The position numbers and the translations under genes were made by a program. From contig NZ_JBBNAC010000001.1 in NCBI RefSeq assembly GCF_037996825.1, positions 3,410,001 through 3,474,000 of the forward strand: 64,000 nucleotides of DNA, read 5' to 3'. Position 1 is the first letter of the stretch, and each line of letters begins with the position of its first letter. Under the pieces are notes generated by a model. That model saw only the letters and a list, made by a program, of their open reading frames with translations. It was not told where the DNA came from and searched no databases. Source of the stretch: Bdellovibrio sp. BCCA (lineage in GTDB: Bacteria; Bdellovibrionota; Bdellovibrionia; Bdellovibrionales; Bdellovibrionaceae). Positions 13,201 through 16,291 of this stretch are shown in pieces.

Positions 13201-13358
13201 AAAACGCCGCTCACTCTTAAAATAGTTAGTATTCATTTTCTATCTTTTTTGAAATTCATGTTCCGTGGGCCTCGTCATTGCATATCTTTTATGTCTGTTA
13301 TTTAACTGTTTATGTTAATTCACAGTTGTTAGCCTTGCGCATCACACAAGGAGATATT

Positions 13359-14684
13359 ATGAAAGCCCTTTCGGCATTTTTAATTTTATGCGCCTCTATC
13401 CCTGCCGCGTACGCCACCAGCACAACAACTTGGGATCTCAACAACCAAGATGCCTACGGCTGCTATGCGCGCAATGGCATCTATTCGGACGGCGTTTGTA
13501 TTGATGCTTCAGCCTCTGCACACGTGGCCGCTATTTTAAGTAATGGCATTCGCAAAGGCGGTGGCAATGAAAGCTCAGTGGGAGACACTGTCGTTGAAGG
13601 AGATGTCAAAGTCACAAAGGCTTACGACAATCCTCATTTTCGAGAAATCTTTATTTCTGTCAGCGCCATTCCTCGCGATGAAGTGTTGAACTACAACGAA
13701 AAGAATGAACAGAATTATCACAACTCCAATCGACTGCGTGCGGATGGATTTGTCGATCGTCCGTGGATCTTAGCTAACATCGGTGCCAACATCGCTGTCA
13801 CAAATTCTCAGGACGTCACCGTTCTTGCAGGAAGTTTTCCGGCAAGTGGCTTGGATCCTTTGAAAGGAAAACCAAGTCGTTACTATATGACAGCCCCTTA
13901 CGGCATCATGGTTCGTTACGACAAAGGGATTCAAATGAACTATCAATTGAAAGAAGAATTAGATCGCGTGATCCTGGCCTCTTTCAGTGTGATTGATGGT
14001 GATGGCCTTAAAGGCGAATCCAATATTGATCCTGCGGACTCGCGTGCCAACTCATATCCTTCTTATGCAGGTACGATGGAACTTCGAATCACCAATGCAC
14101 TTCGCAAGGTTTTTGAAAAATCATCGCCGTACTTAAAGAATCACGATCTTTATATCGGCGTGACTGGAAGTCACGGAGACACGGGCAGCTATGCAGGCCA
14201 AAAAAGATCCCAAGACGATCTTACGACTTATTTGGGTTACATGTTCACTTCCAAATATGGACAAGCCGAAGTTCGCGTCTTCCGTTCTGACTTTAATCGC
14301 AACAAAGCCGGCAACGGTGACGGACGCCACGGCCCTCAAGTGGAATCAAGTGCTCACGGTGTTGAAGTTGCATATCGTGGGTTGGAGTCACGTCTTTGCT
14401 CTTGGGACTTTTATTTGAACAAACATATTTTTGAAAATAACAGCCAAGATCCCGATGGAGAATTCACTTACGACAACGTTCGTGGCGTGAAAGGTTGGAC
14501 TGCGGGAACGAGCTGCCGCAACTTTTGGGGCGTTGATAATTTGGATGTCGGTTTTGAATATGGAAACGTTGAATTAAAGAGCGCACCAGGAACAAAACTT
14601 TCTGGCGCTTATCCTCTAACCTCAAATTTATTCAATCTGACGTTCACGTATCGCTTTGGTTTGCACAAAGCTTATAGAAAATAA
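13359..14684 (+). CDS. Exported protein with beta-barrel-like C-terminal half
   Basis: 441 residues; clear signal peptide (MKALSAFLILCASIPAAYA) after an AAGGAGATATT ribosome site. A longer in-frame reading adds 27 residues ahead of that site and is rejected. The C-terminal half alternates short hydrophobic/aromatic strands (TTYLGYMFTSKYGQAEVRVF, WDFYLNKHIF, LDVGFEYGNVELKS) and closes with NLTFTYRFGLHKAYRK, as in outer-membrane barrels; repeated GSHGDTGSYAGQ and DGRHGPQVESSAHG loops are Gly/His-rich. No family is recognised. Confidence 0.7.
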   Translation: MKALSAFLILCASIPAAYATSTTTWDLNNQDAYGCYARNGIYSDGVCIDASASAHVAAILSNGIRKGGGNESSVGDTVVEGDVKVTKAYDNPHFREIFISVSAIPRDEVLNYNEKNEQNYHNSNRLRADGFVDRPWILANIGANIAVTNSQDVTVLAGSFPASGLDPLKGKPSRYYMTAPYGIMVRYDKGIQMNYQLKEELDRVILASFSVIDGDGLKGESNIDPADSRANSYPSYAGTMELRITNALRKVFEKSSPYLKNHDLYIGVTGSHGDTGSYAGQKRSQDDLTTYLGYMFTSKYGQAEVRVFRSDFNRNKAGNGDGRHGPQVESSAHGVEVAYRGLESRLCSWDFYLNKHIFENNSQDPDGEFTYDNVRGVKGWTAGTSCRNFWGVDNLDVGFEYGNVELKSAPGTKLSGAYPLTSNLFNLTFTYRFGLHKAYRK

Positions 14685-14831
14685 GCAGCGACAAATGACA
14701 AATGTATTTACCAAAGACCGGGAGAAAACGCTGAATTTATGCCTTTATAGAGAAGGTATTTGAGACAGAGTTTTCTCATATAAATGTTGATGCCTTTTGG
14801 CACCCAGTGGTTTCTTTTTTGAAGTTTGGGT

Positions 14832-14837
14832 TATACT
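14832..14837 (+). promoter_or_regulatory. Possible minus-10 element of the candidate RNA gene
   Basis: TATACT, 5 of 6 to consensus, about 50 bases before the folded RNA domain. No convincing minus-35 hexamer lies 16-18 bases upstream (GGTTTC region), so the promoter may need an activator or be spurious. Confidence 0.3.
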
Positions 14838-14843
14838 GAGTTC

Positions 14844-15007
14844 GTAGAGAGAAACAAGAGATTCAGAAAAAGCGGAAAGATAGAAACGAGCTCTCAGGAA
14901 GATAGAAAGCGATGCTTAAGAGAAGTCTTAGATTCGCAATGTTTAGATTCTATGAGAGTCGTCCGAGACGGGACTTGATCGAATGATTGAGCCCCGTTTC
15001 CATTTTT
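14844..15007 (+). ncRNA. Candidate structured small RNA
   Basis: The 326-base gap after the barrel gene holds no ORF but a compact fold. ACGA(G)CTCTCA at 14886-14896 pairs with TGAGAGTCGT at 14953-14962; inside it ATAGAA (14902) pairs with TTCTAT (14948), GCGA (14909) with TCGC (14934), and CTTAAG (14915) with TCTTAG (14926) around a small loop. A purine-rich unpaired 5' tail precedes it and a strong hairpin with T5 follows immediately. The 5' end is a guess placed just after the TATACT element. No known RNA family is recognised. Alternatively this is the structured 3' UTR of the barrel gene. Confidence 0.5.
14965..15007 (+). terminator. Rho-independent terminator
   Basis: GAGACGGG pairs with CCCGTTTC (one G-U) and an inner CTTGATC/GATTGAG helix continues with G-U wobbles to a GAAT loop, giving about 15 pairs with one mismatch, followed by CATTTTT. 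Ends transcription of the candidate RNA or of the upstream barrel gene. Confidence 0.7.
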
Positions 15008-15010
15008 AGA

Positions 15011-15889
15011 TTAATGTTCTAATGCGACAGGAAGAAAGTTCGTGGGAGAAGAAGCGGTTGCCGCCTTCTCTTTTCCAGTCTCCAACTTCACAAGTGAACC
15101 GATGATGTCTTGCAACTTTTCAAACGGCTGTAAATTCGGCGGAAGATTTTCTTTAAGCTCCATTGTCAACACGGGTGTTTTTCTTTCAAGCCACATGTAG
15201 CGTCCCAAGCTGCCCGGATAATTTCCCAAAGATTTCCATGGAAGATAATCAAATTTTGGTGGCGGAGACACTTTCGGTCCGTCGAAATCCAAAACCTTTA
15301 AAGGCGTATGCACTGAAACTACGAAATCCGGTTGGAAATCTTCTAAATGGTGAAGAGCGCATTTTGTTTCAGGTTCACTCGCCGCTTCCGCACCAGGGAA
15401 ACGACGTGGATTCGATTTTGTTGTGCGCTTCCAGTTTTCAATCGCTCCTGTCGTCCAATCTTTTGTTGGGAAGTTGCGATTGATATCAATCTTGTTCGCA
15501 TTCGTGCGAGTTTTGTATTTCACACCGTCAGGATTTAAAACCGGAATCACGCGCCATGAGTTGCGTGGATCAATGCCCTCAAGACGCTCCATCCAATAAC
15601 GCCCCACAGTTCCCGCTGGAGTTTCATCTCCATGGATCAAGCTGAATACCAAAACTTTTTTCGCACCTGGAGTCGCAGAGATTTTATCGTAGTGATAAAT
15701 AGGCCGTCCCTCTGCACTGACACAGATGGAATCGACTTTTACTTTTTCACAAGCTTGTTTGAGCATTTTGTCATCCCAAACACCCGGAAACTTTTTTAGA
15801 TCGTTCAAGCAGTCTTGTGGAACATTAGAAAAATCGGCTCGCGCCGATACGACTGACAAAAACATCAGACTTAATATTAATGTTTTCAT
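15011..15889 (-). CDS. Exported M14-family zinc carboxypeptidase (murein-peptide amidase type)
   Basis: 292 residues with a signal peptide (MKTLILSLMFLSVVSARA); the in-frame ATG 14 codons earlier is rejected for that reason. M14 hallmarks are present: IHGDETPAG with His and Glu zinc ligands, NADH-independent substrate-binding DINRNFP, the third zinc ligand in VSVHTP and the catalytic Glu in TMELKE. The short catalytic domain resembles MpaA-type gamma-D-Glu-DAP amidases, so a role in trimming peptidoglycan peptides, own or prey, is likely but inferred. Its downstream side abuts the plus-strand RNA terminator. Confidence 0.85.
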   Translation of the reverse strand: MKTLILSLMFLSVVSARADFSNVPQDCLNDLKKFPGVWDDKMLKQACEKVKVDSICVSAEGRPIYHYDKISATPGAKKVLVFSLIHGDETPAGTVGRYWMERLEGIDPRNSWRVIPVLNPDGVKYKTRTNANKIDINRNFPTKDWTTGAIENWKRTTKSNPRRFPGAEAASEPETKCALHHLEDFQPDFVVSVHTPLKVLDFDGPKVSPPPKFDYLPWKSLGNYPGSLGRYMWLERKTPVLTMELKENLPPNLQPFEKLQDIIGSLVKLETGKEKAATASSPTNFLPVALEH

Positions 15890-16069
15890 ATACCCCGTCT
15901 TCACATCCCTATTATCCCAGGTCTTTTGCAACTCTCAAGATGAGAAAAGAGCGATTCCTGCATTTTCTCTGCCCCAAGCTGAGAATCCTTACAAACTGAC
16001 TAAAGTCTTAATGCCTTTCGTCCGTAATGTAAAGGGTGTGACCAATAGGACTCAGTGGGAGGATGTATG

Positions 16070-16291
16070 ATGAACCGTGGTAGTTTTAGTTTCGTAGCGA
16101 TGCTAGTGATAAATCCCATCGTGATACTGTTTTATCAGAATTGCTCGATGACCCCGGTAAGTTATGCGAAAAATACAACACCACGTCCGGTCGTATCAAG
16201 ACAGATCGCCTCGGAGGCAAAGCCTGTTGTTGCAGAGGTTGAAAAGCCCGCTTGCCCTGAGAACAAAAAAGAATGTGCTAAAGCGGAATAA
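16070..16291 (+). CDS. Small putative lipoprotein
   Basis: 73 residues. A hydrophobic segment (FVAMLVINPIVILFYQNC) ends in Cys within QNCS, a non-canonical lipobox that I associate with Bdellovibrio lipoproteins; the mature part is short, Pro/Lys/Glu-rich and ends with CPENKKECAKAE. Two adjacent ATGs are possible; the second lies 7 bases after GGGAGG and is preferred. Expected at the membrane as a small anchor. Function unknown. A hairpin follows the stop. Confidence 0.65.
   Translation: MNRGSFSFVAMLVINPIVILFYQNCSMTPVSYAKNTTPRPVVSRQIASEAKPVVAEVEKPACPENKKECAKAE

Follow-up and report, generated by a model that had tools for sequence, protein, structure and literature searches.

A candidate RNA gene in an intergenic gap

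Does a non-coding gap in the genome of Bdellovibrio sp. BCCA hold a gene for a structured RNA, and does such a gene serve its neighbours or stand alone? The window analysed here, a stretch of 64,000 nucleotides (contig NZ_JBBNAC010000001.1, positions 3,410,001 to 3,474,000 of the forward strand; positions given below are those of the window unless another genome is named), contains in its map of open reading frames a gap at 14685-15010, the 326 non-coding bases named in a preliminary description made from the letters alone, and this gap holds the candidate RNA. On its 5' side lies an open frame of 468 aa (13278-14684, +) with no Pfam match, and on its 3' side an M14-type zinc carboxypeptidase (15011-15931, −; Pfam PF00246), which is convergent to the RNA gene and not part of it (4 nt separate the peptidase stop from the terminator tail in the window).

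The candidate gene is read from the forward strand. A −10 element, TATACT (14832-14837), is found without a −35 hexamer at 17 nt (GGTTTC stands there), and further upstream the dyad TGCCTTTTGGCA (14791-14802; family pattern TGY-N6-RCA), centred near −48, may be the site of an activator. The 5' end, placed by the −10 element, is predicted at 14844 and begins an unpaired, purine-rich tail (14844-14885), the length of which is lineage-specific. The most conserved block of the 5' part, GAAACGA (14883-14889), overlaps the end of this tail, its ACGA forming the outer 5' arm of helix 1. Domain 1 (14886-14962) is predicted to fold into a nested imperfect hairpin with a closing helix (14886-14889/14959-14962 and 14891-14900/14948-14958) and an apical module GCGA...GAUUCGC (14909-14937; helix 14909-14912/14934-14937, inner hairpin 14915-14931) that is present only in part of the genus. 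The predicted fold agrees exactly with the 77-base domain of nested helices in the preliminary description, and the T-tailed hairpin that was said to follow at once does so after a linker of 2 nt (CC, 14963-14964): the terminator hairpin occupies 14965-15007, with the stem 14965-14972/14993-15000 and 14974-14980/14985-14991 and the tail CAUUUUU (15001-15007). This hairpin was not flagged by a simple terminator scan, and a tRNA/tmRNA scan returned no candidate.

The minimum-energy fold of 14844-15010 has −47.6 kcal/mol (shuffles: mean −34.0, sd 3.7; z −3.7), and none of 200 shuffled sequences folded as well. For the domain without the terminator, z was −2.9 and two of 200 shuffles were as good; taken by itself, domain 1 has a moderate excess of energy. 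Fold energy on its own would be no more than suggestive; it is conservation and covariation that decide whether the structured RNA is real.

Distribution of the RNA in the genus Bdellovibrio

In a DNA search, 13 genus genomes, that of the window among them, gave matches, mainly to the terminator half. With a covariance model of this half (R1, the 3' module), the RNA was found in 15 of the 24 genus genomes, as a single copy in each, and no match was obtained in any other genus among 60 sampled in the order. A full-length model built from six genomes (R2) added G013 and G021; the copy in G013, a genome that was not in the training set, adjoins the M14 peptidase, as in the window. The third model, R3, for which just three distant members (G010, G011 and G021) were used, recovered G012 and G022 at E values of about 1e-26 and also the window copy at its exact position (E 3.7e-6), the window being absent from its training.

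Over all three models, the covariance search in relatives that had been proposed in the preliminary description recovered the RNA in 19 of the 24 genus genomes, one copy per genome. The description had held that lack of helix conservation in close relatives would speak against the RNA; instead, the helices are conserved in these genomes and show compensatory changes. No match to the models was obtained in G004, G005, G015, G017 and G020, nor was the RNA seen beside the peptidase, MutS-V or transglutaminase genes of genomes without a model match. Because the genomes that carry the RNA fall on both sides of the midpoint root in a rough tree of the peptidase, the RNA is most simply regarded as ancestral to the genus, with later losses or divergence beyond detection in some lineages.

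Several weaker matches were rejected. In G107, a genome outside the genus, two models matched weakly at different places, and the one inspected lacked the motifs; weak extra matches in G000 (the genome of the window), G003, G017 and G023 had neither the GAAACG block nor the conserved promoter. A pattern of the terminator core, run against about 85,000 species genomes, gave 20 matches, of which four were in Bdellovibrio; the remainder were scattered over unrelated phyla and were taken as chance. Phage and plasmid records were searched, with no match to the RNA. None of the copies proposed outside Bdellovibrio appears convincing.

Covariation and conserved sequence blocks

Base pairs were counted in 18 sequences after removal of the unalignable middle of domain 1, which left the outer nine pairs and the terminator. 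Compensatory double changes were seen in 17 of the 24 pairs (six of the nine in helix 1, in which 90% of the cells are paired, and 11 of the 15 in the terminator). Standard pairs filled 91% of the cells; shuffles reached 83%, and with slid partners the share was 52% or less. The covariation score was 0.41 versus 0.26 in shuffles, and none of 500 shuffles scored as high. Since related sequences can exceed such shuffles without any structure, the slid control and the independent recoveries by the models weigh more. Within the subgroup of the window, the inner GCGA/UCGC helix shows a double change from G-C to A-U in two of six genomes. The middle helices cannot be aligned genus-wide; the covariation analysis therefore extends only to helix 1 and the terminator, plus the apical helix within a single subgroup. 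The preliminary description had looked to compensatory substitutions in the four helices of the domain. Such changes were seen there in the closing helix and in the inner GCGA/UCGC helix, and also in the terminator that follows.

All homologues are predicted to form the same two hairpins, mostly 2 nt apart. What is kept among them is this two-hairpin shape, the bases of the stems, GAAAC at the foot of hairpin 1 (invariant in the 18 aligned homologues) and UUCCAUUU at the 3' end. The apical module, in the form GCGAUG...GAUUCGC, is strongly conserved in the window, G003, G014, G007, G018, G008 and G013 (with similar letters in G013); elsewhere other sequence takes its place. The module may serve as a binding site particular to this lineage.

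The purine-rich 5' tail, 42 nt in the window, is long only there and in G007, and the predicted start of most homologues is 3-6 nt ahead of GAAAC. Its interpretation as a region for target pairing or protein binding is thus not supported. Binding loops of the CsrA type were considered as well and rejected (GGA occurs in the tail and in a helix of the window and is not retained in relatives).

Promoter and genomic neighbourhoods

Of 17 homologues to which a script was applied, 14 have TATACT, TATAAT or TATAGT as their −10 element; in the 17 the predicted start lies 3-8 nt past it and a −35 hexamer was found in none. The dyad TGY-N6-RCA (often TGCTTNTTGGCA) ends 27-30 nt upstream of the −10 element in 14 homologues, mostly at 29 nt, as in the window. 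It was placed by eye in G008, G013 and G021, where the script had picked another position, and also in G012 and G022, and its fit is imperfect in G003 and G014. Among the genomes scanned, the combination of dyad, spacing and −10 element was found at the RNA locus only. A conserved dyad upstream of a −10 element that has no −35 hexamer suggests that the promoter is under the control of an activator.

The RNA occurs at four kinds of genomic address. It adjoins the M14 peptidase in ten genomes, including that of the window, a MutS-V gene in four (strain kdesi, G016, and G006, whose coordinates are those of HD100, are among them) and a UDP-sugar dehydrogenase gene in G010. The remaining neighbour is a TgpA/transglutaminase gene, which is close to the RNA in G011 and G021 and about 1 kb more distant in G012 and G022. 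The dyad, the −10 element, the body and the terminator are retained at all four addresses. As promoter, body and terminator move as a unit, they would constitute a gene rather than an element of one neighbour, and the RNA gene is probably free-standing and independent of any one neighbour. The gene unit, the fold, the covariation and the conservation of the promoter are established by computation, and we consider it very likely that the locus is an RNA gene.

Comparison with known RNAs

A search against Rfam 15, one of the checks proposed in the preliminary description, gave no match in the window at the gathering threshold and only chance-level matches at E values up to 10. The assignment made there, a structured RNA of no assigned family with its own terminator, has been borne out by this search, by the recovery of the RNA across the genus and by the compensatory changes. 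A resemblance to Y RNA (GUCCGA) had no support from Rfam and was set aside. The RNA is not 6S RNA: it does not match RF00013, and the sole 6S RNA match of the genome is a separate gene (G000:C1:172865-173038). 6S RNA is likewise autonomous, structured and of similar length, and it binds protein, which for the candidate is a proposal only; 6S RNA, however, is one long rod with a central bubble, whereas the candidate consists of two hairpins side by side.

In B. bacteriovorus HD100, the homologue lies at 2,821,979-2,822,108 (−). The aptamer of class c-di-GMP-I that belongs to merRNA was found inside merRNA in G006 (1,073,741-1,074,185, −), which confirms the HD100 coordinate frame and makes positions comparable. 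Karunker 2013 (PMC3627812) describes eight attack-phase RNAs of this strain (APsRNA1-7 and merRNA), none of which, as located in the main text of that paper, maps to the position of the homologue. Like the candidate, they are intergenic in Bdellovibrio, some are of similar size and most are described there as structured; the attack-phase sRNAs, however, are reported in the same text to have no homologues outside B. bacteriovorus, whereas the candidate spans the genus. As the list comprises phase-enriched RNAs only, an RNA that is constitutive or belongs to the growth phase would be missed, and the candidate, given its absence from the main-text list, may be weakly expressed, constitutive or confined to growth. 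The sRNA of the hit locus, another intergenic sRNA of Bdellovibrio, is placed by PMC3818213 between bd0103 and bd0108 (HD100 96,455-96,716), a different position from that of the homologue, so that an identity of the two was rejected on the coordinates of that source. No other paper describing the RNA was found in the literature. It would be a real genus-wide sRNA family, uncatalogued as far as the sources examined show, of an ordinary kind in general and useful in Bdellovibrio.

One of the published attack-phase RNAs calls for a separate remark. APsRNA7, given as HD100 3,416,607-3,416,881 (+) in the main text of PMC3627812, encloses an open frame, about 73 aa long and conserved (MNRGSFSFVAMLVINPIVILFYQNCSM...), which is located at 16055-16291 (+) in the window and at L041:2549-2782 (HD100 about 3,416,628-3,416,861). 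The frame is present in the window and in 22 loci of the genus, with base changes mostly at third codon positions. The most likely reading of APsRNA7 is a messenger for a small lipoprotein or membrane protein, not a non-coding RNA.

Possible modes of action

In the mechanism that we propose, binding of an activator to the dyad, near −48, would turn on the −35-less promoter, and RNA polymerase would yield a transcript about 110-165 nt long that has a short 5' end free of pairing, a long imperfect hairpin and, about 2 nt on, the terminator hairpin. This RNA would act in trans: its two-hairpin fold would be recognised by structure, and it would bind, carry or titrate a protein, the protein partner being the least certain part. 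We infer the transcription, the activator and the action in trans from the conserved features described above. No consistent open frame was found across the homologues. Hfq (PF17209) was not found in 24 genomes of Bdellovibrionales (16 of the genus, G000-G015, and eight of the order; five of 14 controls were positive). In fold predictions, the longest stretches that are commonly accessible are the CAUUUU tail and some 6 nt at the 5' end, compared with the 7 nt or more that would be expected of a conserved, open seed in an Hfq-dependent sRNA. A kept shape, kept stems, GAAAC and UUCCAUUU, together with the lack of a long open seed and of a detected Hfq, make an RNA that is recognised by its structure likelier than an Hfq-dependent antisense RNA. 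Overall, we think it probable that the gene encodes an autonomous, activator-controlled sRNA which acts in trans, is recognised by structure and likely binds a protein (an estimate that also takes in other ways of acting in trans through the structure). Protein binding as the main mode of action would have somewhat less than an even chance.

The alternative that survives best, although we regard it as rather unlikely, is an sRNA that pairs with targets in trans through a short open stretch (AAUGAA/GAAAC at the 5' end or the CAUUUUU tail), with a chaperone other than Hfq or with none. In its favour are the gene's own promoter and terminator, its intergenic position, an RNA of sRNA size, a 5' end that is predicted to be open, and GAAAC, which does not vary among 18 homologues. 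With the Hfq-dependent sRNAs of enterobacteria the candidate shares its own promoter, a T-tailed terminator and the absence of a consistent open frame. Against this reading stand the absence of detected Hfq in the 16 genus genomes searched, shared open stretches of just about 6 nt rather than a long conserved seed, and the fact that in the lineage of the window the conserved block is no longer 5'-terminal.

Translation of a leaderless mini-ORF, NTG-AAA-CGN, from the 5' end (MKR...), which would make the RNA an mRNA or a translation-sensing leader, is improbable. ATG, GTG or TTG precedes AAACG in 14 of 19 homologues, shortly after the −10 element; the NTG start is, however, absent in the window, G007, G016, G018 and G013, the peptides have 5-18 residues with ends that are not shared, terminator lengths vary by 1-6 bases and not by threes, and base changes track pairing. 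One of the 5' ends readable in this way as a leaderless mini-peptide lies at G006:C1 near 2,822,108 (−).

Even less credible is a conditional terminator, in which GAAACG of the 5' part would pair with CGUUUC of the terminator and toggle termination in a leader-like RNA. The two are complementary in 96.7% of the cells in 15 homologues and in 91.7% in 18, but this pairing shows no double change at all; the terminator arm has changed in G010, G011, G012, G021 and G022 with GAAACG unchanged, which breaks the pairing in at least five genomes, and because the next gene is convergent in the window there is no same-strand gene past the terminator. That the RNA is a cis element of the M14 peptidase, as an antisense RNA or a 3' UTR regulator, is the least probable of all: in the window, 4 nt lie between the end of the terminator and the stop of the peptidase, and this neighbour is common to ten RNA-bearing genomes, but nine others carry the RNA elsewhere with promoter and fold intact and have the peptidase as well.

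Significance for Bdellovibrio

Returning to the structure-recognised sRNA that we favour, a more far-reaching version can be offered only tentatively: a genus-wide, activator-switched RNA that titrates or scaffolds a protein would be a predator-specific, Hfq-independent regulator and a new structural class, possibly active during growth or across the two phases of the predatory cycle. Since no Hfq was detected in the genus, the mode of action of such an RNA is a tractable question. The RNA is common to most of the genus and comes with testable predictions of structure and promoter, and its defined position in HD100 makes it directly testable in the model strain.
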